This document shows, piece by piece, positions 1,772 through 23,163 of a DNA stretch of 23,163 bases. A program made the position numbers and the translations under genes. This stretch comes from Anaerolineae bacterium (GTDB lineage: Bacteria > Chloroflexota > Anaerolineae > 4572-78 > J111). Numbering within the stretch: the stretch's first letter is position 1; each line of letters starts with the position of its first letter. A model generated the notes under the pieces. The model saw only the letters and a list, made by a program, of their open reading frames with translations. It did no database searches and was not told the origin of the DNA. The DNA lies in assembly GCA_023382535.1 (NCBI GenBank), contig JAHDWA010000105.1, positions 1-23,163 of the forward strand, written 5' to 3'.

Positions 1772-1944
1772 GAGGGCGGCGCAAAACTTTAAGGTTAACT
1801 CGTTTTTTGAGTCAGGTGGGTGGTCAAACCAGGAAGCAAGTTTTTTTGGATGAGAGATTTTTTATCAGTTTTTCACCGTTTCTCAACAAAGAAGAGGCAT
1901 AAAGTTGCCGGGAGTAGCTAAAATATGGAACAGATCAAATATCT

Positions 1945-1973
1945 TTGACAAAGTCATCGTAATCGTTTACAAT
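1945..1973 (+). promoter_or_regulatory. Promoter of the LacI-family repressor gene
   Basis: TTGACA (1945-1950), a 17-nt spacer and TACAAT (1968-1973) form a near-consensus promoter. The start site should be near 1980, about 48 nt before the ATG at 2028. Because the promoter lies downstream of 1905, it rules out the longer reading of the repressor that would begin there. Confidence 0.83.
1957..1972. promoter_or_regulatory. LacI-family operator O3 (autoregulatory)
   Basis: TCGTAATCGTTTACAA differs from operator O2 at one base and sits in the same place in the repressor promoter (spacer plus -10) as O1 does in the PTS promoter. This indicates negative autoregulation. Confidence 0.8.
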
Positions 1974-2027
1974 TATGTTGGTCCATATTTTTCAGTAGGA
2001 ATAATCAAGCCCGGAGTATATCAATCT

Positions 2028-3026
2028 ATGGTCAGTATCAAGGAAGTTGCCGATGCTGCCGGAGTCTCGACGGCAACGGTCTCGCGGGTGTTGGCGAACA
2101 AGCCCCATGTCCGGCCCGAAATTCGTGAGCGCGTTTTGGCCGCGGTGGAAACGCTGAGTTACCGCCCCAATCGGGTGGCGCGTAGTTTAAGGGCGCAAAA
2201 GTCACACACGATCGGTTTGATCGTGGCCGATATTCAAAATCGTTTTTTTACCGCGGTCAGCCGCGCCGTGGAGGATATGGCCTATGAGCATGGACTGAGC
2301 ATCTTTTTGTGCAATACCGATGAAAACCCGGCTAAAGAGGCCATGTACCTCGACCTCATGCGAGATGAAAACGTGGCCGGGGTGATTTTAGCGCCGACGG
2401 GTCAAACCGCTGACGCCTTTGCTACTCGGGTCAAACTCGATATCCCGATAGTGGTTATTGATCGGCGGGTACGGGGCGTTGAGGTGGATAGTGTCTTAAT
2501 TGATAATGTTGAGGCAGCCTACAAGATTGTTGAACATCTCCTTGACGATGGTCATCGGCGCATTGGGGCTATGTTTGGTATAGGCAGCACCACTGGACGG
2601 GAACGACGCGAGGGCTTTATGCAGGCGTTTAAGGACCGCGGCCTTAAACCGGCGCTTGAGTTGCTCAGCTACGTTGATGTCAGAGAGGAAGAGGGCTATA
2701 AAGCGACCCAACAGCTATTGGGTCTACCTGAACCGCCAGAAGCTATTTTGGCCAGCAATGGCTTGATGGCTGTAGGGGCCTTCCGGGCGATTCGGGAGAG
2801 TAAACTGTCAATTCCCGATCAGATTGCTTTTGCCAGTTTTGACCGGACCACTTGGAGTTCTCTCGTTGAGCCGGCCGTTACCCTGATTGAGCAGCCAACT
2901 TACGAGATTGGCCAAACGGCCACAGAACTCCTGCTCAAACGGCTTGAAGAGCCTACCCGTCCCACCCGCGAGGTTATTCTTAAGGGTAAGTTAGTTATCC
3001 GGCAGTCTTGTGCCAATCACAAATGA
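2028..3026 (+). CDS. LacI-family transcriptional repressor
   Basis: This 332-aa cytoplasmic regulator probably represses the divergent PTS gene and itself. Residues 3-22 (SIKEVADAAGVSTATVSRVL) form the helix-turn-helix. The hinge helix carries VARSLR at about 48-53. The rest is a periplasmic-binding-protein-like sensor domain (HTIGLIVADIQNRFF to LIEQPTYEIGQTA). The effector is unknown; by context it would be a sugar or sugar phosphate from the PTS. I chose the ATG at 2028, giving MVSIKEV as in typical family members, with GGAG at 2013-2016. An in-frame start at 1905 would add 41 unconserved residues and would place the gene's own promoter inside the coding region. The stop lies 24 bp from the convergent GyrA-like gene, with no clear terminator between them. 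Confidence 0.93.
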   Translation: MVSIKEVADAAGVSTATVSRVLANKPHVRPEIRERVLAAVETLSYRPNRVARSLRAQKSHTIGLIVADIQNRFFTAVSRAVEDMAYEHGLSIFLCNTDENPAKEAMYLDLMRDENVAGVILAPTGQTADAFATRVKLDIPIVVIDRRVRGVEVDSVLIDNVEAAYKIVEHLLDDGHRRIGAMFGIGSTTGRERREGFMQAFKDRGLKPALELLSYVDVREEEGYKATQQLLGLPEPPEAILASNGLMAVGAFRAIRESKLSIPDQIAFASFDRTTWSSLVEPAVTLIEQPTYEIGQTATELLLKRLEEPTRPTREVILKGKLVIRQSCANHK

Positions 3027-3050: not shown

Positions 3051-4088
3051 CTACATCTGGCCCACTGTCAGCGCCACAGTTTCATCGGCGCGGAGGGCCA
3101 TGCAGTTGACCCCCTGGACGACCCCTTCTTTGGCCGGAACCTCGCCTACCTGAAAGCGAATAATTTTTCCCAGGCGTGAGATAATAAACAGATCATCCCT
3201 ATTGGTGGCGGTGACTGCGCCAACCAGTTTGTCGGTTTTCAGAGCGACTTTGCCGCCTGCGCCGGGCGCTTTGTTGGCGGCAAAACCGGTCATCAGGCGC
3301 AGCGCGCCTTTGCCGTCGTCGCCGAGCAAAAAGACACTGCTGTCATCCTGCACCGGGGCAACGGCAACCACGGTATCGTCTCGGTCCAGGCGGATGCCCA
3401 GGCAGCCGCTGTGCGGCACACGTTGCTCGGCAAAACGGATAGCTTTGCCTTGGGCCGTGGCAATAAACAGGTCAGCCTCGCCGGGAGTCCAGCAGGCAGC
3501 CGCCGGCGCGCCCAGTTCTTGCACCTCGAATAGAAGGGTGCCAGGGCGAAGGTTGTCGCTCAGGTAATGGTGGCGCAGGCGGCGAACGTGACCGCGCTCG
3601 GTGACAAGGGCGACATAGCCGCTCGGCTGGCCGGGCAAAACGATGGCCAGGCGCTCGTCGGGGCGAAAGGGCAGCCGCTCTGTCAGCAATTGACCCCGGC
3701 CGCGCACCGGGGACTCGGGCAGGCTGTTGACCGGGACGCGGAAGGCGCGGGCGTGATTGGTGATAAGCAGCAGGCTCTGGCTTTCGTCGGCGATGGTCAA
3801 AAAGGCCGGCGCGTCGCTTTCCGGTGTCTCCAGGTCAAATATCCCCATCCCACCCCGGCGCTGGCGATAGTAAAGATGGCGCGGCGTGCGCTTGGCCTGA
3901 CCGCCGGCGCTGACGGTAATAAGGTTGAGAGTGGTCGGCGGCTCGCTGGGTTCGAGAAGTACTGCCGCTACAGCCCGTTCACTCGCAGTCTCCTCTTCTC
4001 GCAAACGTTCCAGTTCAGCTTCCAAAGCTTCGATATAAGCGCGCACCTGCGGGTCAACCTGACTCAGGTCGGGGCGTTCAAGGTTCAT
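3051..4088 (-). CDS. Stand-alone DNA gyrase A C-terminal beta-propeller protein
   Basis: This 345-aa protein resembles only the C-terminal DNA-wrapping domain of GyrA/ParC. It has no breakage-reunion domain and no catalytic tyrosine region. Residues about 10-45 are charged and helical (EALEAELERLREEE), a likely short coiled coil. From about 52 onward there are repeated blades of the form 'ITVSAGGQAKRTP', 'LLLITNHARAFRVPV', 'VALVTERGHVRRL', 'LFIATAQGKAIRF', 'VFLLGDDGKGALRL' and 'LFIISRLGKIIRF', about six in all. QRRGGMG at 76-82 resembles the GyrA box (QRRGGRG) used for DNA wrapping. I prefer the ATG at 4088, preceded by GAGG at 9 nt, over a TTG at 4109. It has its own promoter. A role in DNA bending or supercoiling homeostasis is inference. 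It is not a degraded gyrA, because the frame is intact. Confidence 0.88.
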   Translation of the reverse strand: MNLERPDLSQVDPQVRAYIEALEAELERLREEETASERAVAAVLLEPSEPPTTLNLITVSAGGQAKRTPRHLYYRQRRGGMGIFDLETPESDAPAFLTIADESQSLLLITNHARAFRVPVNSLPESPVRGRGQLLTERLPFRPDERLAIVLPGQPSGYVALVTERGHVRRLRHHYLSDNLRPGTLLFEVQELGAPAAACWTPGEADLFIATAQGKAIRFAEQRVPHSGCLGIRLDRDDTVVAVAPVQDDSSVFLLGDDGKGALRLMTGFAANKAPGAGGKVALKTDKLVGAVTATNRDDLFIISRLGKIIRFQVGEVPAKEGVVQGVNCMALRADETVALTVGQM

Positions 4089-4129
4089 TAGATTTTTCCT
4101 CAATTTCAAAAACTAAATTTAGCGCATTG

Positions 4130-4893: not shown

Positions 4894-7206
4894 TCAATGG
4901 AGCGGAATGATCAGCATATCATCGGCCAGGCGGTTGCCGCGGGTGTCAAAGGCGGGCAAGCGCTGGCCGGTCGCGGGGTCATACAGGCCAACGGCCAAAT
5001 GGTCCGCCTGGACCAAATTGCCCTCAGGAAAGTAACGAATATCCTGGATGATTTCGCCAGGCTGCCAGGTGGTGGTGGGATAATGGCCGCTTACGGGAGG
5101 ACCGTCAGCTTGGCTGCGGACAAACCCATCGGCCGCGCGGAAGTGGATGAAGACGGTGTAGTCGGCGGGGAAGGGGGAGGTGGGACGCCAGTAGAGGGTG
5201 AGGCGGGGAGTAGAAGATGGAAGATAGAGGATAGAAGATAGTGGTTGGTTGAAAGTGGAAAGTTGAAGGTCAGGGGAAGACATTTCGTAGGCTAAAAGTT
5301 GGATGGTTTGATCCTGTCCGAAGGTGGCGATGGGGGTGGTGAAGCGAGCTGCATCGGCTGGAAGAACCTGATAGAGATAATCACCTTCGAACTGAGCTAT
5401 AGGGAGTAGCGCCGGATCGCGTTCAGCTTGCCAGCGGTCGGTGGTTTCCCAGCGGTCGCGGTCAAACGGGGTTTCGCCGGGGTGGACGAGGAGGAAGAGG
5501 GGAGGGGAGGGCTGGAGGGTTGGAGAGATGGAGGAAGAGGTTAGGTCTTGGAGGGCGGTGACTGCGGTGGGGCCGGGAAAGTCAGTGAGCGCCTCGGCTA
5601 ATTGGGGTTGGCGGGAGGGGGTGTAGCCGGAGTAGCCGTTGACGAGCTTCCACCAGCCCAGGGTGCTGGCGTAGAGTCGTTTGACTTCGGGATATTCGGG
5701 GGCAGGGGCGCTGTGCAGCGGGAGTTCGATCAGGGCGACAGGGCCGGGCTGCTCGGCCAGCCAGTGATAAGCCGGGTTCAAGGTGTTTCGGTTTTCGACA
5801 GGGGCGAGGGGGAGAGGGATCGAGAGGGTTTCGAGGAGGAGGGCGAAGGTGAGGATGAAGAGGATAGATTTAAAGTAAAGCGTGGTGCGTGGTGCGTGGT
5901 GCGTGATAACAGTATAGCCGAAGGCAGCCAGACCGGCCAGGGCGAATAGGGCCGGGATAACCCAGCGAGGCGGGACACGGATGACGGTGCTGGCGGGAAA
6001 GAGGTGGGCCAGGGCAGCGTAGGGAGTGGCAAAGGTGAGGGCCAGGGCGATGAGGAGGACGGCGAGGAAGGCGTAGAGCGTAGAGCGTAGAGCGTGAGGT
6101 GTGGGGCGTGAGGTGTGAGGTATAAATCGTAAATCGTAAATCGTAAATCGTAGGAGGGTGATGAGGGCCAACAACGGAGCTACGATGCCAATAAAGAGGG
6201 TATTTTCCTCAGTGAAGCCGGGACGGGTGCGGAAGAACCCGGTCAGGGGGCCGAAGAGGCGATTGAAAGGGGCCGCGGCGATAAAGTCGGTGGGGGCGGC
6301 GGCGAGAGAAAGCGCCTGTGACAACGGGCGAGCGGTACGCAGGTCGTCCAGCAGAGAGAGGTAGGGCCAGGCGAAGGGGAGAATGATGAAAAGTGAAATT
6401 AGAAATAAGAGGCCAAAGTGAAACAAATTGGTCCGGGTTAGCCGGCGAGTGAAGAGGGCGGTTAGCAGAAAAATGCCGAGAATAAGGAAAGTGTACAGGG
6501 TCAGATACCAGGAGGCCAGCAGTTGCAGGAGCAGAAAAATGACTGAAGCAAGGAGTAGGGACGCGAAGCGAGGAGTAGGGAGTAGGGATTGGGGAGGTTT
6601 TTTCTGATCGAATAATTTGTCAATGAGTAACAGGACGAAAGGCAGCCACTGGAAGGTGAGCAATTGCAGGTGGGCGATGGTGGCAAAGCGGTAAGGGGCG
6701 AAAGCAAAAATCAGGCCGGCGATAAAAGCGGCGCTGCGCTGGCGGGTCAAGTGTAACGCTAGCAGGTACATGCCAAAAGCGGCCAGGGGAAAAGTCAGCA
6801 GCAGGCTGAGATTATAGGCGGCAACTGGCTCGGCGGAAATCAACTGCAAGGGCAGTGCCAGCAGGGCCGTGCTAAAGAGGTGTTCCGAGTAGGCCAGCGT
6901 GTCAGGCAGGGGGTAAAAGATATTGGCGTTGAATAAATTGAGGGGGTCGGTGAGCAGGGCATGGCTGTCCCAGGCCAGAATCCAGGTGTTGAGCAAAGGA
7001 TCACCGATGTCGTTGGGTACGGCAGTGGTCAGGTTGAAAAACAAGGGATGGGTCAAGACAAGGGTGATGAGCGTATAGGCCATGAGGATGGTCAGGTTGA
7101 TCCATTGTTGACTACCGACTATTGCCTGTTGACTGCCTGTGCCCGCCAGGGTATTGATTATTGAAAGCGGGTTGTCCTTTAGCCCTGATGATTGCTGCCG
7201 ACTCAT
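4894..7206 (-). CDS. GT-C-like multi-pass membrane protein with C-terminal extracytoplasmic beta module (770 aa)
   Basis: This is a probable membrane glycosyltransferase of the GT-C fold, which would transfer sugar from a polyprenyl-phosphate donor outside the membrane. The first membrane segment (about 38-55) is followed by an acidic outer loop, PNDIGDPLLNTWILAWD (64-80), where GT-C enzymes place catalytic or metal-binding aspartates. About ten more hydrophobic segments run to residue 460. The C-terminal region (about 650-770) is soluble and contains YTVFIHFRAADG, YPTTTWQPGEIIQD and LAVGLYDPATGQRLPAFD, a module shared with the two upstream genes. The start ATG overlaps the upstream stop in an ATGA arrangement, so translation is probably coupled. 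Six heptanucleotide repeat patches are translated within it. The donor and acceptor are unknown, and a non-catalytic membrane role cannot be excluded. Confidence 0.8.
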   Translation of the reverse strand: MSRQQSSGLKDNPLSIINTLAGTGSQQAIVGSQQWINLTILMAYTLITLVLTHPLFFNLTTAVPNDIGDPLLNTWILAWDSHALLTDPLNLFNANIFYPLPDTLAYSEHLFSTALLALPLQLISAEPVAAYNLSLLLTFPLAAFGMYLLALHLTRQRSAAFIAGLIFAFAPYRFATIAHLQLLTFQWLPFVLLLIDKLFDQKKPPQSLLPTPRFASLLLASVIFLLLQLLASWYLTLYTFLILGIFLLTALFTRRLTRTNLFHFGLLFLISLFIILPFAWPYLSLLDDLRTARPLSQALSLAAAPTDFIAAAPFNRLFGPLTGFFRTRPGFTEENTLFIGIVAPLLALITLLRFTIYDLRFIPHTSRPTPHALRSTLYAFLAVLLIALALTFATPYAALAHLFPASTVIRVPPRWVIPALFALAGLAAFGYTVITHHAPRTTLYFKSILFILTFALLLETLSIPLPLAPVENRNTLNPAYHWLAEQPGPVALIELPLHSAPAPEYPEVKRLYASTLGWWKLVNGYSGYTPSRQPQLAEALTDFPGPTAVTALQDLTSSSISPTLQPSPPLFLLVHPGETPFDRDRWETTDRWQAERDPALLPIAQFEGDYLYQVLPADAARFTTPIATFGQDQTIQLLAYEMSSPDLQLSTFNQPLSSILYLPSSTPRLTLYWRPTSPFPADYTVFIHFRAADGFVRSQADGPPVSGHYPTTTWQPGEIIQDIRYFPEGNLVQADHLAVGLYDPATGQRLPAFDTRGNRLADDMLIIPLH
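5211..5241. repeat. Heptanucleotide repeat patch (GAAGATA type)
   Basis: About four units close to GAAGATA/GAGGATA lie inside the 770-aa gene just before its C-terminal module. On the coding strand they are translated as LSSILYLPSST. Looser 7-8-bp purine repeats continue to about 5270. Confidence 0.7.
5487..5545. repeat. Purine-rich short repeat patch
   Basis: Degenerate 7-8-bp units of GGAGGGTT and GGAGAGAT type lie within the 770-aa gene. They are read on the coding strand as TSSSISPTLQPSPPLFLL. This patch is less regular than the others. Confidence 0.5.
5879..5909. repeat. Heptanucleotide repeat patch (GCGTGGT type)
   Basis: Three exact GCGTGGT units plus a GCGTGAT variant lie inside the 770-aa gene. 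They are translated on the minus strand as ITHHAPRTT. Confidence 0.78.
6071..6154. repeat. Composite heptanucleotide array (GTAGAGC, GTGAGGT, CGTAAAT units)
   Basis: Roughly twelve consecutive 7-bp units occur in three blocks: three GTAGAGC, about four GTGAGGT/GTGGGGC, then four CGTAAAT. The 84-nt patch is translated in the 770-aa protein as FTIYDLRFIPHTSRPTPHAL followed by RSTLY. Confidence 0.85.
6550..6595. repeat. Heptanucleotide repeat patch (GAGTAGG type)
   Basis: Units of GAGTAGG, with an interrupted copy GACGCGAAGC, lie in the 770-aa gene. They are read on the coding strand as PPQSLLPTPRFASLLLAS. Confidence 0.7.
7105..7156. repeat. Repeat patch (TTGACTA type) with shared 19-nt end
   Basis: Units close to TTGACTA/TTGACTG are followed by TGTGCCCGCCAGGGTATTG (7138-7156). 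The same 19 nt recur exactly at 11371-11389 in the 977-aa gene, again preceded by TTGTTGAC and TTGCC units. Here the patch encodes the N-terminal stretch NTLAGTGSQQAIVGSQQ. Confidence 0.75.
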
Positions 7207-10200
7207 GGCTTCACCCGCCAGACAAAGCTGTTATCAGGCAGGGGCTGGCCGGCGGCATCGGCGGCGGGGAGGCGTTCTCCGGTATCAGAATTGTAAACGC
7301 CGACGGCAATAGAGGCGAGGTCAGCCGGGTTGGGCAGCAGGGAGGTTAAGGGGCGCGCATCGGTAATGATTTGGCCCGGCTGCCAGTTAGACAGGGGATA
7401 GAGGCCGGCATAGGGGACGCCGTCTGCCTGGGCCAACAGGCTGCCGCTGCTATCCAGCAAGTGGATAAAAATAGTGTTATTCCGCTCAAGCGGCTGGGCG
7501 GTCTGCCAGAACAACATCAGGGTCTGCTTGCCGTCCGAGGGATAGAGGGCCTGCCAAAGGGTGATATGTGGGCCAAAATGGGCTAACGGTTCTGAGGGTA
7601 AAGCAGGCTGCGGCGGGGTCAACCAGATCGAGCCGAGGGTAAAGGTGGTCGCTTCACCGGCAGGCAGGACAACCAGGCGCTCATTGCTCTGGCGATCGTA
7701 CAAGCCTGCCTTCACTTCATAGCGAATCGGCGGGAGGCCGGCGGGAATTTCCAGATGAAGCGGGTTGCGCAGGTACAGTCCGGGTGGCCAATTGCGGGTC
7801 GGAATATTTTCCGGGTGGACTTCGTCCACGGTAGCGAAAGTCTGGCCGTTGGGAGCGTCGAGATGCAGAAAGACGGAATAGTTGGTGTCGAGTTCGCCCA
7901 GGCTGCGCCAATATAAAACTGCCGTTAATGTCTCGTTATTGTCGCTAACCATTGGCAAAACTTGAGGCAAATTGTCGGCGCCGACGAGGCGCAGCAGCGC
8001 CGTCCGGTCCGCAGGGAGGCCAAAATCCACTTGCAAGATTTGAGCGGCGGGTTGGGGCCGGTCAGGGTTAGAGCGGAACGTAAAGAATGGGGCCAGCGGG
8101 CGAGAGACGAGGTAAGTTGTGACAAGCAGAGCCGAGGTGACAGCGAAAAATTGGCCGGTCAGCGGAGCCTGGCGAGGCGAAATCTGACCGGGAACTGGAG
8201 ACTTAACTCGCCGGCTGGCTAACTCGCCAAATCGCTTTTTGAGAGCAAAACCAGCGATAATGACCAGGATGACAAACGCGCCAAGCGTCAGTCCCTGGCC
8301 CAGAGTGCGCAGCGGTGTGGACTCCAGTCTCAAGGCCAAAATGTGTTCACCGGCTGGAACGGTGGTTTGGATCAGCCCAGTTGGCTCAGTCACCGTAAAA
8401 GCAGCAGGTTGCTCATCCAGGTAAAGCTGCCAGCCGGGCCAGTAAAGGGTGCGGACCGTGGCGACGAATTCCTGGGGAGTGCGAATACGGAAGGTGTCGG
8501 CCTCGGCGCGGTGCGAGATAGTTTCGACAGTGGCGCCGGAAGGTAGAGTTGCCGGGTCTACCTTTTGGGGAGGGCGGCTGGCGGCATAATCAGGCCAGAG
8601 GGCGTCGGGCCGGGGATGCTGCCGGGCGCTGCGAGGTAAAAATTCGCCGGTGCTGGTCGTGCCAATGGCGCCGGAGGTCACTTCATAGGCAAAGGCGTCG
8701 GCCGGCGCAGGCGTACTCCAGACGATGAATTGGACAGGATAAAGGTAGTAGATATTCAGGGCAATGGCGGCGAAGATGGAGAACAGAAGATAGAAAGTAG
8801 AAGATAGAGGTTTGAATCTAGAAAAAAGAAGTAAGAAATTAGATTTTAGTTTTGAACGAGAGCGGTTAGGATTGAAAGGGTAGGCTTCAGGTTTTAAAAT
8901 CGAAAGTCGAAAATCGAAAATCGAAAACGGAAATGCGGCCAGGAGACTCGCGCAGAAGATAGCCGGGCCGAGCATTCGCCACGGGAATTCGGCCAGTTCC
9001 AGAAGCGGGACTGCTTCCCAAAGGGGAAGAGAGTAGGGCAGAGCCAGGAAAGTGTAGAGCAGAAGGAAGACGGCGAAGAAGAGAGCGTGGGCGAAGGCAT
9101 GAAGATGGAAGATAGAGGATAGAGAATAGAAGATAGAAGATAGAAAATAGAAAATAGAAAAAGGATGATGAGTTGGTATATCCTGGGACTGACTCGCTAA
9201 CCTGCTGCTTCGTTGCTTGTTCAGTTTGATACTGATGAATAGTAAAGTAATTAAACCAATTCCTGCTCCGATAATTTGGGGCAAACCCAGACTAAGGGGA
9301 AATTCGGGGTTGATGGCGGCAAGGTCGAGGGGGAGAGGCGGGGAGAAGAATTCCGGCAGGGAGATGAAATTGGCCCGAAAATCAAAAAAACCACGGGTGA
9401 TGCCTTCCAATTGAATTTCGTGCCGCTCGCCAAACGCGGGCAGCCAGAAGATGGCGGCCAGTCCGAGTCCCAGGAGGCCGGCGGCTATGAGAGCAAAAAG
9501 TGGGCGTATGAAATACGAAGTGTAAGGATTACTCTTCGCTTCTTCACCTCTTCGCCTCTTCGTCTCAGCGGAAGCGGTCAAGATCAGCAGAAACAACAGG
9601 TAGGCCGCCAGCAGCGGGGTGAAGAGCATGAAACTGATGTTATGGCTAAAGAGCAGGCCGGCCAGGGAAAAGGCGGCAGCAACCAGATAACCGGGTTGCC
9701 TGGTCGTGACGAGACCGTGACAGGCCCACAAGATGAGCGGGTAAAAAGCCAGGCCGGTGAATTGGCCGTAATTGCCCTGAATGTAAGCCTCGCGGAGGCG
9801 ATAGGGCGCATAGACATACAGGGCAGCCGCCAGCAAAGCCGGGCCGGGACCAAACAGACGGCGAGCCAGCAGAAACATGCCGGCGCTGTATAACAGAAAA
9901 TCAAAAACGAGGACAGCTTTCATGGCCTCGTCCAGGGGCAGGCCAAGTAAGTGGAAAAGTTGGGTTAGCTGGTAGAGAGCCGGCGGAGCGTAACTAAAAA
10001 TAGGCATGCCATGGCCAAAAGCCAAATCCGTTCCCCAGCGGGGATAGAAATTACCTTCCTGCCAGGCCCGATTTAGCTCCACCTGGCGCATCAAATGAGC
10101 CGGACCATCGGCTGTGTTCGGTAAGCCGGGGTGGGTCAATAAGGGCAAAACAGCAAATAACGGCAGGACCAGAGCCAGCAACAAGCCATAGTCTAACTTT

Positions 10201-10220
10201 TGCCAAAGTTGAGATCTCAA
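7203..10220 (-). CDS. PTPS-related/YfhO-like GT-C-type membrane protein (1005 aa)
   Basis: This large membrane protein belongs to the family labelled '6-pyruvoyl-tetrahydropterin synthase related'. That label reflects a domain name and not pterin chemistry. After membrane segment 1 (12-30) comes the family hallmark TADGPAHLMRQVELNRAW (36-53, Asp38), then PRWGTDLAFGHGMPIFSYAPP. About a dozen membrane segments follow. An outer domain resembles YfhO (YWPGWQLYLDEQP, VPAGEHILALRLESTP), then comes a further membrane helix. Two tandem copies of the beta module end the protein: YSVFLHLDAPNGQ (about 778) and NTIFIHLLDSSG (about 915) with LYPLSNWQPGQIITDA. The start is TTG at 10220 with GGA 9 nt upstream; a stop lies just upstream in frame. 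It is a paralogue of the 977-aa gene, 100 bp away in the same direction. Confidence 0.82.
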   Translation of the reverse strand: MRSQLWQKLDYGLLLALVLPLFAVLPLLTHPGLPNTADGPAHLMRQVELNRAWQEGNFYPRWGTDLAFGHGMPIFSYAPPALYQLTQLFHLLGLPLDEAMKAVLVFDFLLYSAGMFLLARRLFGPGPALLAAALYVYAPYRLREAYIQGNYGQFTGLAFYPLILWACHGLVTTRQPGYLVAAAFSLAGLLFSHNISFMLFTPLLAAYLLFLLILTASAETKRRRGEEAKSNPYTSYFIRPLFALIAAGLLGLGLAAIFWLPAFGERHEIQLEGITRGFFDFRANFISLPEFFSPPLPLDLAAINPEFPLSLGLPQIIGAGIGLITLLFISIKLNKQRSSRLASQSQDIPTHHPFSIFYFLSSIFYSLSSIFHLHAFAHALFFAVFLLLYTFLALPYSLPLWEAVPLLELAEFPWRMLGPAIFCASLLAAFPFSIFDFRLSILKPEAYPFNPNRSRSKLKSNFLLLFSRFKPLSSTFYLLFSIFAAIALNIYYLYPVQFIVWSTPAPADAFAYEVTSGAIGTTSTGEFLPRSARQHPRPDALWPDYAASRPPQKVDPATLPSGATVETISHRAEADTFRIRTPQEFVATVRTLYWPGWQLYLDEQPAAFTVTEPTGLIQTTVPAGEHILALRLESTPLRTLGQGLTLGAFVILVIIAGFALKKRFGELASRRVKSPVPGQISPRQAPLTGQFFAVTSALLVTTYLVSRPLAPFFTFRSNPDRPQPAAQILQVDFGLPADRTALLRLVGADNLPQVLPMVSDNNETLTAVLYWRSLGELDTNYSVFLHLDAPNGQTFATVDEVHPENIPTRNWPPGLYLRNPLHLEIPAGLPPIRYEVKAGLYDRQSNERLVVLPAGEATTFTLGSIWLTPPQPALPSEPLAHFGPHITLWQALYPSDGKQTLMLFWQTAQPLERNNTIFIHLLDSSGSLLAQADGVPYAGLYPLSNWQPGQIITDARPLTSLLPNPADLASIAVGVYNSDTGERLPAADAAGQPLPDNSFVWRVKP
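8772..8812. repeat. Heptanucleotide repeat patch (GAAGATA type)
   Basis: About five units of GAAGATA/GAAAGTA/GAACAGA lie inside the 1005-aa gene. They are translated as KPLSSTFYLLFSIF within a membrane segment. Confidence 0.68.
8897..8930. repeat. Heptanucleotide repeat patch (ATCGAAA type)
   Basis: Four units (ATCGAAA, GTCGAAA, ATCGAAA, ATCGAAA) lie in tandem inside the 1005-aa gene. They are read on the coding strand as FSIFDFRLSI. Confidence 0.8.
9100..9163. repeat. Heptanucleotide array (GAAGATA/AAAATAG type)
   Basis: About nine consecutive near-heptamers lie inside the 1005-aa gene. They are translated as FSIFYFLSSIFYSLSSIF, a hydrophobic stretch with a clear seven-residue period. Confidence 0.85.
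9508..9568. repeat. Octanucleotide repeat patch (CTTCGCCT type)
   Basis: Units of CTTCGCTT, CTTCACCT, CTTCGCCT and CTTCGTCT follow a degenerate AAATACGAAGTG stretch in the 1005-aa gene. They are read on the minus strand as AETKRRRGEEAKSNPYTSYF, a charged insert between hydrophobic segments. Confidence 0.68.
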
Positions 10221-10244
10221 GGTTCGGTATCCAAGCTTTTCGCC

Positions 10245-10265
10245 GGGATTAGGGGATTAGGAGAT
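10245..10265. repeat. Intergenic short repeat (GGGATTA type)
   Basis: GGGATTAG, GGGATTAG and GAGATTTT lie in tandem in the 100-bp gap between the 1005- and 977-aa genes. This is an untranslated member of the same class. The rest of that gap shows nothing clear. Confidence 0.5.
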
Positions 10266-10320
10266 TTTTGAGTTTCCTTACCCGCAAATTCCCTGATCCG
10301 GGCGGGCTTAATCAAAGTGG

Positions 10321-13254
10321 CTAATCCCCAACTTTTACCCGCGCCAGTTCGACAAAATCAGCGCCGTTGGCCGTGAGCAAACGCTGCTGGCTGGTGGGAT
10401 CGTACAGGCCCACAATGAGGCGATATTCGCCGGGAAGTACGTTCTGTAAAGGAATATGACGCGGGTCAATGATCGTTTGATCGGGCAGCCAGGTCGAGGT
10501 CGGGTAGGCTCCATCCAGCGGAGGGCGGTCAAAACTGGCGGCTAAATTATTCTCCAGGTCGAGCAGTTGAGCAAAAACCGTGTAATCGGCTGGTGGGGAC
10601 TGGTCTGTCCGCCAGGCCAGCCGAAAACCAAGGCGGTTTTGGGCTGGAGGGTCGAGTTCAAAGCCGGTCAAATAGATGGTGGCGTGGCCGGCTTTGAAAG
10701 ACGCTGCGAGTGATTCAGCCAGGCGAGCTGTTTCAATGGCCGGTGCAGTCACATTAATCACAGTTAACCGGGCCGTATCGCCGCTGCTATTAGCCAGGGG
10801 CAGCAGACGACCGTCCTGATCAGGGTCCATCAGGCCCACCCGCACGGCGTAGGCCAGGGGCGGTGTGTCCGGTGGTACCGTCAGGTCATACTCGTCGCGG
10901 ATATAGCGAGCGTTGTCCCAATGAAAGGTGGGCAGGACGCTCTCGGTCGTGGCATCCCCCGGCGTGTAGTTGGTTGCGCCCGCAACAGTCGTCAGGGTGT
11001 CGAGCCGGTCCAGGTGGACAAAGGGTTGGAGGTTTACCTCAAGCGGCGCTGCATCGGTTTGCCAGTAAAGCACCATCTGCACCCGCTCGCCCCCTGAAAC
11101 AACCGTTTCATCCAGGTCGTATCCAATCAGTTGGATGCCCTGGGCAAAATGGATCTGCGTCTGGTACTGGGCCGGTAAGGCCCGATCGGGCGGAGAGTTG
11201 ACGGTAAACATGGGCCGGAGCAGCGGCTTAAGCCAGAGTGCGGCAGGGATGATAAGTAAGATAACGGCTAAGAAAGCAGGGGAGCAGGGGAGCGGAGGAG
11301 CAGGGGAGATTATGCTGGCATTCTCATGTTTTCCTGCCCCTGGGTTGTTGACAATTGCCCCCTGTTTGCTTGTGCCCGCCAGGGTATTGGCCCTTATTCT
11401 TCTTACTACACCCGCTCCGATCAAGCCTAGCACTGTCAGACCTGTCAGCAGCAGCGCAAAGACCCGGCCTGGCGTTTCTCCAAAATGGACGACCAGCTCG
11501 TGGCGGCCGGCAGGGATATGGATCAGGATCAGCCCGCTTTCGGCCTCAGGCTGAATGAACACCGGTTGACCGTCGAGTTGAGCCTGCCAGCCGGGGTAAT
11601 CGAACTGGAAGAAGCGTAGGGTAAAGGCAGTGGGACTGTCCAGGTGGTAGCGGTGGGTGACAGCGGTCTGCTCCAGCAGGGTCGCGCTGGCCCCGTCAGG
11701 CAGGCTGTTACGGTCGAGGCGCTCGGGAGAGGGGGTCGCTTGAAAAGCCTCGACCAGGGGCGAGGTGGTGGGGGGAGTAGTAACCGTCTGGGGCAGGTAT
11801 TCGCCGAGGGTGGTCGTGCCGATGGATTGCGAGCGGCGTTCGTAATTAACCTGGTCGGCGATCGTCACCTGGTCATAACGGGTGAAACCAATTACCGGGT
11901 AGAGGTAGGGGGCTACGGCAGTAATTTGGACCACCAAAAGGATCAGGGTCAAGGGCCAGCGCACTCTTGCGGGCAGCCATAGTACAGCTCCGCCGGCCAG
12001 GAAAGCCAATCCGAGATTGGCTACGCCCAACATGCGCCAGGGGAACTCCGCCACCTGCAAAATGGAGACGATCTCCCAGACCGGCCGCGAGATGGGCAGG
12101 CTCATAAAGGCGGCTGCGGCGGCTATAACGGCAAAGAAGAGGGTGGAGAGGAGGCGGGGGTTGGAGGTCAGGAGTCGGGGATTAAATGTTTGCTGACCCC
12201 TGGCCCCTACCCCCTGGCCCCTGAAAATCCCTGCGGCCAGGCCAAGGGCGGCCAGGATGAGGGTAATGACGCCCAGGGTCAGCGGGGCGTACGGATTGGC
12301 CGCACGGGTGTCGAGGGGCTGAATCCAGGCGACCAGTTCCGTCCACTGGGGATAGCGTACATAAAAAGGACTTTTCTCCAGGTAGATGTCAGCCTGGGCC
12401 CGGGTGAAGACTCGCTCCGTAAAGGCAGGCAGCCAGAAAAAGGCCGTCAGCAGGAGGCCGAGGGGGATAGCGGATAGAGGATAGAGGATAGAAGAAAGCG
12501 CATGGCGAGCTGAGTTCTGATTACTGGCTACTGACTCCTGACCCCTGGCCCCCGACCCTTGCAGTAGAACCAAGCCATATAGGCCCGCGACAGGTGTAAA
12601 AATCAGGGCCTGGAAAAGATGGCTGAGCAACACACCGACAAAAAAAGTGGCGGTCAGCACTCCCCAGCTCCAGGAGCGTCTCCTGTCAGCGCAGGTCATA
12701 GCCCAGAGAGTCCAGGGGAAGAGACCGATGGCCAGCAGTTGGGGGACATTGCCGCCGTAGAGCAGCGCTTCGCGTAAGGCAAAAGGAGCAAAGGCGTAAG
12801 CGGTGGCAGCTATCAGCCCAGCCGTGACGCTGCCCCATACGTCCCGGCCAAGCAAGTACATGCCAATTGCGTAAAGTAGAATTGTGAGGATAATTAAAAG
12901 TTTGAACGCATTTTCCCAGGTCAATCCGAGGCCGTGGAAAGCCAGCCCCAGCCAATAGGGCAGGGGCGGGGCAAAAACAAACATGGGATAGCCGTAGCCA
13001 TAAGCTAAATTAGGCGCCCAACGCGGCACGATTACGCCCGGCCCCCAGGCTTGGCCGTACTCCAGGGTGCGGTAAAAGTGGATCGGCAGGTCCGCTTGGG
13101 TAGGTAAGCCGGGCTGGAGCAGGCTCTGGACGATGAACAGCGTGAGCAGCCCGGCCAGGATGAGGCCGGCATCCAGCCGGCGCAGCAAAGGATGCGCTGC
13201 AGCCCGTGAAACGTGATGAGTGAGACGTGACGCAAAAGACATGGATTTGACCAT
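10321..13254 (-). CDS. PTPS-related/YfhO-like GT-C-type membrane protein (977 aa)
   Basis: This is the first gene of the leftward membrane-protein cluster and a paralogue of the 1005-aa protein. After segment 1 (about 29-46), the hallmark loop reads TQADLPIHFYRTLEYGQAW (52-70, Asp55), followed by PRWAPNLAYGYGYPMFVFAPP. Multiple membrane segments follow, then a YfhO-like outer domain (DYPGWQAQLDGQPV, HIPAGRHELVVHFGETP). The protein ends in two beta modules, near residues 745 (LQPFVHLDRLD) and 893 (YTVFAQLLDLENN, YPTSTWLPDQTIIDP, LIVGLYDPTSQQRL). The ATG at 13254 lies 7 nt after a GATAAT -10 box, suggesting a leaderless message; an ATG at 13242 is an alternative. Five repeat patches are translated within it, including one at residues 6-16. 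Surface-glycan synthesis is the likely role, with the substrate unknown. Confidence 0.82.
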   Translation of the reverse strand: MVKSMSFASRLTHHVSRAAAHPLLRRLDAGLILAGLLTLFIVQSLLQPGLPTQADLPIHFYRTLEYGQAWGPGVIVPRWAPNLAYGYGYPMFVFAPPLPYWLGLAFHGLGLTWENAFKLLIILTILLYAIGMYLLGRDVWGSVTAGLIAATAYAFAPFALREALLYGGNVPQLLAIGLFPWTLWAMTCADRRRSWSWGVLTATFFVGVLLSHLFQALIFTPVAGLYGLVLLQGSGARGQESVASNQNSARHALSSILYPLSAIPLGLLLTAFFWLPAFTERVFTRAQADIYLEKSPFYVRYPQWTELVAWIQPLDTRAANPYAPLTLGVITLILAALGLAAGIFRGQGVGARGQQTFNPRLLTSNPRLLSTLFFAVIAAAAAFMSLPISRPVWEIVSILQVAEFPWRMLGVANLGLAFLAGGAVLWLPARVRWPLTLILLVVQITAVAPYLYPVIGFTRYDQVTIADQVNYERRSQSIGTTTLGEYLPQTVTTPPTTSPLVEAFQATPSPERLDRNSLPDGASATLLEQTAVTHRYHLDSPTAFTLRFFQFDYPGWQAQLDGQPVFIQPEAESGLILIHIPAGRHELVVHFGETPGRVFALLLTGLTVLGLIGAGVVRRIRANTLAGTSKQGAIVNNPGAGKHENASIISPAPPLPCSPAFLAVILLIIPAALWLKPLLRPMFTVNSPPDRALPAQYQTQIHFAQGIQLIGYDLDETVVSGGERVQMVLYWQTDAAPLEVNLQPFVHLDRLDTLTTVAGATNYTPGDATTESVLPTFHWDNARYIRDEYDLTVPPDTPPLAYAVRVGLMDPDQDGRLLPLANSSGDTARLTVINVTAPAIETARLAESLAASFKAGHATIYLTGFELDPPAQNRLGFRLAWRTDQSPPADYTVFAQLLDLENNLAASFDRPPLDGAYPTSTWLPDQTIIDPRHIPLQNVLPGEYRLIVGLYDPTSQQRLLTANGADFVELARVKVGD
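11276..11308. repeat. Short repeat patch (AGCAGGGG type)
   Basis: AGCAGGGG units in tandem, with a GCGGAGG interruption, lie in the 977-aa gene. They are translated as ISPAPPLPCSPAF, a proline-rich stretch beside a membrane segment. Confidence 0.65.
11345..11389. repeat. Second copy of the TTGTTGAC...GCCCGCC repeat
   Basis: TTGTTGAC, TTGCCCCCTG and TTTGCT units are followed by TGTGCCCGCCAGGGTATTG (11371-11389), identical to 7138-7156. The coding-strand peptide is NTLAGTSKQGAIVNNPG, visibly related to the copy in the 770-aa protein. Confidence 0.72.
12142..12232. repeat. Short repeat patch (CTGGCCCC/CTGACCC type)
   Basis: Units of CTGACCC, CTGGCCC, CTACCCC and CTGGCCC follow GGAGGTCAGGAGTCGGGG in the 977-aa gene. 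They are translated as GQGVGARGQQTFNPRLLTSN and related residues, between membrane segments. Confidence 0.68.
12465..12560. repeat. Double repeat patch (GAGGATA, then CTGACTA/CTGACCC)
   Basis: Three or four GGATAGA units (12465-12500) are followed by CTGATTA, CTGGCTA, CTGACTC, CTGACCC and CTGGCCC (12512-12560). Both are inside the 977-aa gene and are translated as GSGARGQESVASNQ and LSSILYPLSAIP. Confidence 0.75.
13204..13232. repeat. Heptanucleotide repeat patch (CGTGAAA type)
   Basis: CGTGAAA, CGTGATG, AGTGAGA and CGTGACG lie in tandem at the 5' end of the 977-aa gene. They encode residues ASRLTHHVSRA. Confidence 0.65.
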
Positions 13255-13324: not shown

Positions 13325-13363
13325 ATCTGACTACTGATTACGGCTGCTGATTACTGGCTACTA
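13325..13363. repeat. Intergenic heptanucleotide patch (CTGACTA/CTGATTA type)
   Basis: CTGACTA, CTGATTA, CGGCTGC, TGATTAC and TGGCTAC run up to just before the ribosome site of the PAC2 gene, in the untranslated divergent gap. It resembles the patch near 12520 in unit sequence. Confidence 0.65.
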
Positions 13364-16900: not shown

Positions 16901-16937
16901 ACCTCTCGTTCCCAAACTCAGTTTGGGAACGAGAGGT
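16901..16937. repeat. 37-nt near-perfect palindrome (REP-like)
   Basis: Two 18-nt perfect inverted arms (16901-16918 and 16920-16937) are separated by one base. The core is CGTTCCCAAACT. No T-run follows, so it is not a typical intrinsic terminator. Similar GTTCCCAAACT/AGTTTGGGAAC palindromes recur as intergenic repeats in several phyla, by general knowledge. It lies between the UspA fusion and the MFS gene and would be read as a spurious SFPNSVWERE peptide if the MFS frame were extended upstream. Confidence 0.85.
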
Positions 16938-22268: not shown

Positions 22269-23163
22269 ATGACTAAAGTTATCATCTACATTGTGATTGC
22301 GCTGGTTGTCATTATTGTAGGCAATATCTTGCTGCCCGTACCCCGTGTGGCTATCGAAGTGGCGGCGGAACCAGTTGGTTTGGGGCCTGTCACCAATGCC
22401 ATGCTGACCTCATTTACCCTATCGGCAATTATCCTGATCCTCGCTTTTGTCATTGGCCGTAGCCTGAAGGAAAATCCGGGAGGGCTGCAAAATATCGTCG
22501 AGGTTTTGATTGAAGCGCTCGCTAATTTTGTCAACGATATTGCCCCCAAAAAGTGGGCTGCTACTTTTTTCCCCATTTTAGCTACCATTTTTATTTATCT
22601 ACTCTTTGCCAACTGGTTTGGGTTATTGACTCCTCTGTTGGGCAGCTTTGGTATTGTTCACTCTACCGACCACGGGGGGATGCCAGTTGAAAATGTTGTT
22701 TTCCTAAGGGGGAACGCCGACACAATGACCCCTCTACATAAAGCTGAGAGTGGCGCCGAGGGTGATGAAGCTCACGCGGAAGAGGAAGGCGACCACGCCG
22801 CGGGCAAACAAGCCCTCCTTGTTCCATTCTTCCGTGCCCCCAGCAGCGATTTAAACCTGACCGTTGCCCTGGCGCTTATTTCGGTTTTCCTGACCCAGGT
22901 GTTTGGTGTTTGGGAGCTGGGCCTGGGTTACTTTGGCAAGTTTTTCCAGTTTGGATCTTTTGCCAAAAAGGGCATTGGGCTGGGACTCATTGACTTCTTT
23001 ATGGGCTTGATCGAGTTGGTAAGCGAGGTGGCTAAAATTCTCTCGTTTGCCTTCCGGTTGTTTGGCAATATCTTTGCGGGCGAAGTGGTCTTAATCATTA
23101 TGTCATCACTGGTTTCCCTGCTGGTGGTGAATATTTTCTTTGGCCTGGAAATATTTGTCGGCT
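22269..23163 (+). CDS. atpB: F-type ATP synthase subunit a, 3' end cut by window edge
   Basis: This is the membrane subunit that forms the two proton half-channels of F0 next to the rotor ring. 298 codons are visible without a stop. Segments begin at about 5-22 and 47-64. RAPSSDLNLTVALALISVF (189-207) is the conserved segment-3 motif. AFRLFGNIFAGEVVL (261-275) carries the essential stator arginine, Arg263. A Glu/His-rich, Ala/Gly-spaced insert (158-180, SGAEGDEAHAEEEGDHAAGK) separates the early segments and is longer than in most relatives. The start is uncertain: the ATG at 22269 has AAAGG at 10 nt, and in-frame TTG at 22260 and ATG at 22242 also exist. The remaining c-ring and stalk genes presumably follow beyond the window. 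Confidence 0.93.
   Translation, partial: MTKVIIYIVIALVVIIVGNILLPVPRVAIEVAAEPVGLGPVTNAMLTSFTLSAIILILAFVIGRSLKENPGGLQNIVEVLIEALANFVNDIAPKKWAATFFPILATIFIYLLFANWFGLLTPLLGSFGIVHSTDHGGMPVENVVFLRGNADTMTPLHKAESGAEGDEAHAEEEGDHAAGKQALLVPFFRAPSSDLNLTVALALISVFLTQVFGVWELGLGYFGKFFQFGSFAKKGIGLGLIDFFMGLIELVSEVAKILSFAFRLFGNIFAGEVVLIIMSSLVSLLVVNIFFGLEIFVG

Follow-up and report, generated by a model that had tools for sequence, protein, structure and literature searches.

Heptanucleotide repeat arrays of an Anaerolineae bacterium and its relatives lie between genes and, in translated form, in variable loops of membrane proteins

Short tandemly repeated repetitive sequences (STRR) is the name given to the heptanucleotide repeats of cyanobacteria, which are reportedly linked to Mazel 1990, and Mrazek 2007 is said to be the survey of long simple sequence repeats in bacteria. 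The present analysis concerns arrays of seven- and eight-base repeats in a stretch of DNA of 23,163 nucleotides from an Anaerolineae bacterium of the phylum Chloroflexota (assembly GCA_023382535.1, contig JAHDWA010000105.1, positions 1-23,163; hereafter the window), in which the array region (4,894-13,254) holds three neighbouring minus-strand open reading frames (ORFs) of 770, 1005 and 977 amino acids (aa) that are open throughout the arrays. Three described repeat systems come closest. In most genomes of the Mrazek 2007 survey, as recounted in PMC4692102 and PMC4679880, no class of long repeats is more abundant than heptanucleotides, and polymerase slippage with a contact of seven bases was put forward as their origin. 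Arrays of a single unit, TAACTGA, are described from Beggiatoaceae, Cyanobacteria and some Bacteroidetes, with 169 direct sets and one inverted; in one genome they lie mostly just upstream of start codons, the genic arrays are in stop-free orientation, and proteins with LSVISYQ repeats were noted in several groups (PMC4679880). Finally, degenerate heptanucleotides in the P6b element of the Nostoc tRNA-Leu intron pair into a hairpin whose length varies by repeat number (PMC3488679).

The likeness to the cyanobacterial heptamer repeats, proposed by a first-pass annotation made from the letters of the window, was borne out: the arrays are seven-base tandem repeats beyond chance and, in two relatives termed G002 and G001, are dispersed and denser between genes. 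As in STRR and other long simple sequence repeats, seven is the commonest unit length, and Xanthomonas and Nostoc share the intergenic excess and some inverted repeats. The published Nostoc and Xanthomonas units GGGGATT, GGGGACT and GGGAATC are, however, absent from all 155 arrays of G002, from 16 in a partial sample of G001, from four in a third genome (G310) and from the 30 of a set of operon loci, and GGGGATT makes up one of 13 arrays in G082. This absence separates the repeats of the window from those unit families, not from the heptanucleotide-repeat kind. With the TAACTGA arrays they share the seven-base unit, the mostly intergenic position and the stop-free orientation within genes; they differ in that the Chloroflexota have dozens of units, frequent inverted pairs between genes and genic arrays concentrated in polytopic membrane proteins. 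Hairpins of heptanucleotide repeats are common to them and to Nostoc P6b, but that is one site in an intron RNA, whereas 66 intergenic heptamer hairpins without G-U preference were found here in 1.2 Mb. The main text of PMC4679880 has no mention of 'chloroflex', and our search of one paper library found nothing on heptamer repeats in Chloroflexota. The repeats of the window belong to the known heptanucleotide-repeat kind, in an unusually clear coding setting.

We consider it quite probable that these are dispersed heptamer repeats which could form hairpins between genes, and that their genic arrays survive where they are free of stop codons, keep the frame and are tolerated in variable loops of membrane proteins. 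Where the first-pass annotation had claimed about 13 patches of 7-8-bp repeats in the three genes, Tandem Repeats Finder reported 15 (12 of period 7, three of period 8), all with open frames (Table 1); they are short (3.4-8.4 copies) and mostly degenerate. A strict test, requiring 13 of 14 positions to match at a shift of seven, retained six period-7 arrays in the window, all inside the three genes, and since 100 Markov-simulated windows contained none (mean 0.00, maximum 0) the arrays exceed chance. Strict arrays of period 8 numbered two, and those of other periods none to two. The further claim that the patches are absent from the other genes of the window holds at the threshold used, at which an 8-bp intergenic array (10245-10266) and a weak 2.3-copy 7-mer (22898-22913) were seen outside the three genes; it does not carry over to the relatives, whose other genes have some. 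Tandem Repeats Finder also reports periods 9, 11, 13, 15 and 21 outside the three genes.

The wider distribution was determined in 1.2 Mb each of G002 and G001, taken as evenly spaced rather than random stretches from four and three contigs, respectively; genes were called with our own codon-usage caller (coding fraction 0.79-0.80), and some 'intergenic' arrays may lie in genes that it missed. In G002, 155 period-7 arrays were found (period 8, 59; period 9, 15), of which 81 were intergenic, 55 genic and 19 straddling, while G001 yielded 56 (period 8, 24), divided into 19, 27 and 10. Expressed per Mb, this is 328 arrays between genes versus 58 within them in G002, and 79 versus 28 in G001. Counts of internal arrays below leave out those lying up to 60 nt from a called start or up to 30 nt from a called end (16 of 55 in G002, four of 27 in G001). 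The G002 arrays fall into 48 of the 1170 possible unit classes, and 16 unit classes are common to intergenic and genic arrays. Units of the G002 classes recur in 11 of 16 arrays from the first 400 kb of G001, in three of four from G310 and in three of 13 from G082, as against 4% of random genomic 7-mers; the operon-locus set (21 of 30), of which the G002 operon is a member, was left out of this comparison. In the order, seven of 25 genomes (G001 and G002 among them) contain CGTAAAT in three exact copies, as do three of 301 in the phylum (including G002); its reversed control had no match in those genome sets. In another family of the phylum, seven of 41 genomes, including G082, G066 and G333, have exact TAACTGA arrays, whereas none of the 25 of the order of G002 does; one such array starts at about 8561 of locus L091.

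Orientation within genes was proposed in the first-pass annotation to be under selection, as the unused strand of four unit types meets a stop codon. This is so for GAAGATA, CGTAAAT, GAGTAGG and GTAGAGC, while GCGTGGT and ATCGAAA meet none. Units that are open on a single strand abound in the vocabulary itself, intergenic arrays included (51 of 81 in G002, versus 428 of 1170 possible units), and it is for this reason that the unused strand so often meets a stop. Units open on both, one or neither strand number 13, 51 and 17 among the 81 intergenic arrays of G002, and 18, 36 and one among its 55 genic arrays. Random orientation followed by a stop filter would give a both-to-one ratio in genes of 13:25.5 (0.51), and 0.50 was observed; in G001 the 19 intergenic arrays (four both-open, 15 one-open) predict 0.53, and the 23 internal genic arrays gave 8:15, likewise 0.53. 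Stop avoidance thus suffices for orientation, and the orientation argument is one of survivorship, though at these numbers a weak extra preference may act as well.

The proposed link to membrane proteins was upheld in both relatives. Genes for polytopic proteins, defined by at least six predicted transmembrane segments with the array residues masked, carry 196 arrays per Mb versus 20 in other genes of G002, and 99 versus 13 in G001 (Fisher test by gene, p 4.6e-4 and 3.0e-6; among genes of at least 500 aa, p 0.002 and 6e-5). One of the eight polytopic genes of G002, with six of the 22 arrays, is the ortholog of the 770-aa gene by position and length (locus L010). The description of the encoded cycles as mostly hydrophobic fits weakly: by hand calculation with Kyte-Doolittle values, YLLSSIF alone lies far above zero, four more of the six named cycles exceed zero less markedly, and TTHHAPR is strongly negative.

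For the three proteins, alignments of 113, 117 and 110 sequences place all 14 tested array sites in regions of hypervariable length (ranging, for example, over 12-124 or 14-102 residues). By our own sum, internal length-variable regions account for 23%, 26% and 19% of the proteins (29%, 51% and 23% with the ends included). At the corresponding positions relatives have different heptamer cycles, HHASRFT and FTIYDLR among them. In the structure model of the 1005-aa protein, residues 353-374, which are the longest array, start in a low-confidence loop (predicted local distance difference test, pLDDT, 51 and 50 for residues 351-370), the arrays at residues 430-442 and 471-483 are helix ends flanking one low-confidence loop, and that at 219-230 lies at a helix end. 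The modelled 1005-aa protein has a GT-C fold like that of the GT-C glycosyltransferases (oligosaccharyltransferase STT3/AglB/PglB, AftD), from which it differs by an identity of 9-16% and by added C-terminal beta-domains. The Foldseek list is dominated by beta-sandwich matches, antibodies among them, and has a single oligosaccharyltransferase, at rank 37; the fold assignment does not rest on this list. Invariant alignment columns include D65. The 770-aa protein had no match in a Pfam search, and its listed homologs (45-87% identity) are all from Chloroflexota where an organism is named.

Between genes, many arrays of seven unit types were seen on reading to face an inverted copy of their own unit. 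In G002 an inverted partner lies within 80 bp of 53 of the 81 intergenic arrays, 10 of the 19 straddling and 10 of the 55 genic ones, versus none of 155 at control flanks 3 kb away, and seven of the 10 genic partners are within 42 bp of a called start; the corresponding figures in G001 are nine of 19 intergenic and one of 23 internal genic arrays. Of 217 hairpins whose arms measure at least 15, 58 intergenic and 14 genic or gene-overlapping ones have period-7 arms, 12 and nine have period-8 arms, and no other period exceeds five (three between genes). Heptamer hairpins stand 10-30 bp upstream of a start codon in 25 of 68 distances. A function as terminators was rejected, as array-bearing intergenic regions (53 of 416 tandem, eight of 90 divergent, five of 78 convergent) show no convergent excess. 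Selection on the RNA was likewise unsupported, since the mismatches on the transcribed strand between tandem genes are equally G-U (21) and A-C (22) and no preference for RNA pairing is apparent.

Comparison with the sister locus L001 (89% DNA identity over 8321 aligned bases) revealed homologous and, by eye, array-like sequence at all 13 compared sites, on which ground fresh insertion relative to the sister was rejected for most of them. The first-pass annotation had suggested alignment with relatives as a check for insertions and named the same peptides encoded by unrelated codons as grounds for abandoning its view; the sites proved mostly shared, and no such recoding was seen at those compared. 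Seven strict arrays of L001 lie at six of the 13 sites, and the sites at 11275 and 12193 are degenerate in both. The coding indels between window and sister measure 39, 3, 3, 21, 48, 21, 3 and 3 bp, one of the 21-bp indels lying inside arrays (window 6130) and the other about 9 bp beside an array (8838). At three arrays, three successive copies share the same change, for example ACCACGC versus CCCACGC: the array at 5880..5905 has A in the window and C in the sister on the coding strand, the array at 8896..8933 has its change in the sister, and the third (9160) is at a 3-bp gap, whereas the other two keep their length. All three such triplets at a spacing of seven fall in arrays, which occupy 485 of the 8321 aligned bases. 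The arrays thus seem mostly orthologous and slowly homogenised. Separately, an in-frame insert of about 40 nt sharing CAATACCCTGGCGGGCAC is present in the 770- and 977-aa genes (7139-7156 and 11372-11389, minus strand) and absent from L001 (gaps of 48 and 39 bp). With one mismatch allowed, its core occurs 1, 2, 1, 6 and 0 times in five relatives and its reversed control once in each of two; only G310 stands out, and one of its copies adjoins a heptamer array (L094).

In the mechanism that we propose, slipped-strand copying, usually in steps of seven bases and less often of eight, would be the most likely source of the arrays and of their turnover. In intergenic DNA they would accumulate in either orientation, often facing an inverted copy of themselves with which they could form hairpins, and this inverted pairing looks like a DNA-level process such as template switching, which can make and repair inverted copies (PMC8794818), rather than selection on RNA. 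Within a gene an array would survive given a stop-free orientation, a net length that is a multiple of three and a protein that tolerates the extra residues, and single arms would collect in length-hypervariable loops and helix ends of large GT-C-like and other polytopic proteins because these best satisfy such demands. We infer both mechanisms, slippage and template switching, and also that arrays persist through being tolerated, not through any benefit.

A possible, though doubtful, extension is that the elements are transposase-free palindromes at the DNA level, drawing on a few dozen units peculiar to the clade, in which slippage lengthens an arm, template switching writes its inverted copy and occasional copying seeds new sites, with genes capturing single arms; if so, one mutational process would make both intergenic hairpins and new loop peptides of membrane proteins. 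A mobile palindromic element copied by a transposase, resembling repetitive extragenic palindromic (REP/REPIN) sequences or miniature inverted-repeat transposable elements (MITEs) and leaving broken halves in genes, would also account for few unit types at many sites and for the frequent inverted pairs between genes. We regard it as improbable, as many unrelated units have the same architecture, as sequence outside the arrays is not common to most copies (seven unit types, by eye), and as the Y1 transposase family PF01797, the one transposase family searched, has only three matches in each of two 9-Mb genomes. The loci of about 3.3 kb around these six matches contain no heptamer hairpin, although L085 and L087 have plain heptamer arrays nearby.

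A rival reading takes the arrays to be building blocks of membrane-protein loops, favoured in the orientation that encodes hydrophobic residues. The about 8-10-fold higher density in polytopic genes, exceeding even that of intergenic DNA in G001, agrees with such selection, as does the confinement of the tested sites to variable regions, and in the two relatives the mean hydropathy of array peptides is slightly less negative in polytopic genes (-0.07, 34 arrays) than in other genes (-0.55, 28 arrays). This last comparison falls short of significance (p 0.105). In both relatives the mixture of units follows from a stop filter by itself, genic copies of one both-open unit run in both directions (PVSGLRS once, RPETGDR/ETGDRRP twice), and soluble proteins of the relatives carry arrays too (HypF, a RecJ-like protein, alpha-mannosidase), so that we hold this selection to be unlikely. 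Phase variation, by which 7-bp changes in copy number would shift the frame and switch the genes on or off, has in its favour that seven is not a multiple of three and that repeats of 1-5 nt act in this way in other bacteria (PMC4692102). It is very improbable here: every one of the eight coding indels relative to the sister is a multiple of three, the arrays are short, mostly degenerate and at sites common to the sister, and a relative of the 977-aa protein with 98% identity has the same length.

Several observations weigh against the reading of dispersed repeats that slip, pair and are tolerated in loops. Its genome-wide claims rest on relatives rather than on the genome of the window itself, and slippage alone leaves the recurrence of so few unit types unexplained (48 classes for 155 arrays, with 1170 possible). 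In G001, array density in polytopic genes (99 per Mb with masking, 122 without) equals that of intergenic DNA (79), and no more than 19 of the 56 arrays are wholly intergenic, so that in this genome tolerance may be an incomplete explanation. The idea that arrays grow loops stood in so far as they are material of variable loops; growth by seven residues was not seen across families, neither in loop lengths between conserved anchors (113 and 117 homologs) nor in gap lengths of 170 and 169 neighbour pairs. A seven-residue quantum was rejected, with 122 gaps at four multiples of seven versus 232 in eight neighbouring bins and, in the second set, 126 versus 249; most variation in loop length is therefore not visible as array slippage, and only the direct comparison of window and sister yielded 21-bp indels. 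Mirroring of hairpin arms copy by copy was not apparent beyond chance: arm mismatch averages 0.090 versus 0.124 after block shuffling, with only 14 of 28 below the shuffle median, and since the arms are not clearly mirrored, template switching remains a putative mechanism. Over the whole alignment, same-change triplets at a spacing of seven (three) are matched by those at six (three), with two each at 3, 5, 9 and 16, and substitution has not been quicker in arrays (11.3%) than outside them (10.7%).

Table 1. Genes and repeat arrays of the array region (positions of the window).
Feature	Position	Strand	Details
770-aa membrane protein gene	4894..7206	-	ORF; seven arrays
7-bp array TAGAAGA (+ strand)	5211..5241	-	4.4 copies; peptide LSSILYLPSST; no substitution inside in sister L001
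8-bp array GGAGGGAT	5506..5534	-	3.6 copies; Tandem Repeats Finder
7-bp array GCGTGGT	5880..5905	-	3.7 copies; peptide ITHHAPRTTL
7-bp array GCGTAGA	6071..6095	-	3.6 copies; ALRSTLY cycle
7-bp array GTGAGGT	6094..6121	-	4.0 copies, 80% matches; part of 21-bp difference from sister
7-bp array TAAATCG (coding ATTTACG)	6123..6152	-	4.3 copies; IYDLRFT cycle; part of 21-bp difference from sister
7-bp array GGAGTAG	6572..6596	-	3.6 copies, 83% matches
1005-aa membrane protein gene, predicted GT-C fold	7203..10220	-	four arrays
7/14-bp array GAAGATAGAGAACA	8772..8809	-	residues 471-483, predicted helix start
7-bp array AAAATCG	8896..8933	-	4.6 copies; residues 430-442, predicted helix end
7-bp array GAAGATA	9101..9159	-	8.4 copies; PFSIFYFLSSIFYSLSSIFHLH; residues 353-374
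8-bp array CTCTTCGC	9532..9566	-	4.4 copies; ETKRRRGEEAKS
8-bp array GGGATTAG	10245..10266		between genes
977-aa membrane protein gene	10321..13254	-	four arrays; PF10131 E=1.2e-8; homologs
8-bp array AGCAGGGG	11275..11308	-	4.2 copies
7-bp array CTGGCCC	12193..12223	-	4.4 copies, 79% matches
7-bp array GGATAGA	12465..12492	-	4.0 copies; inside ALSSILYPLSAIP
7-bp array CTGACCC	12531..12558	-	4.0 copies, 80% matches

Other features of the window were noted alongside. In a divergent intergenic region at 13334-13359 (7311-7331 of L001) the window has a diverged CTGATTACTGGCTG array, and at or near this place L001 has a clean period-7 array, ATCAGTAACCAGTAACCAGTA. Facing 17-bp arms, TTTGTAATCGTTTACAA, at 1722-1760 resemble an operator pair and lie upstream of a gene for a LacI-type regulator (1905-3026). 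A palindrome at 16901-16937 with perfect 18-bp arms (ACCTCTCGTTCCCAAACT-c-AGTTTGGGAACGAGAGGT) falls within the first part of an MFS transporter ORF as called, or else shortly before the true start of that gene. The 352-aa protein encoded at 3051-4109 has the C-terminal propeller of DNA gyrase A (PF03989) as its sole Pfam match, without the catalytic part.

An overlapping unit vocabulary, often in inverted pairs between genes and mostly in single translated arms within them, in a mixture for which the stop filter accounts, shows how a noncoding repeat process can feed protein evolution. The repeats offer a testable system for asking why many bacteria favour a repeat step of seven bases and by what route one unit comes to occupy many sites. 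For those who annotate such proteins, it follows that their variable loops can consist of repeats.

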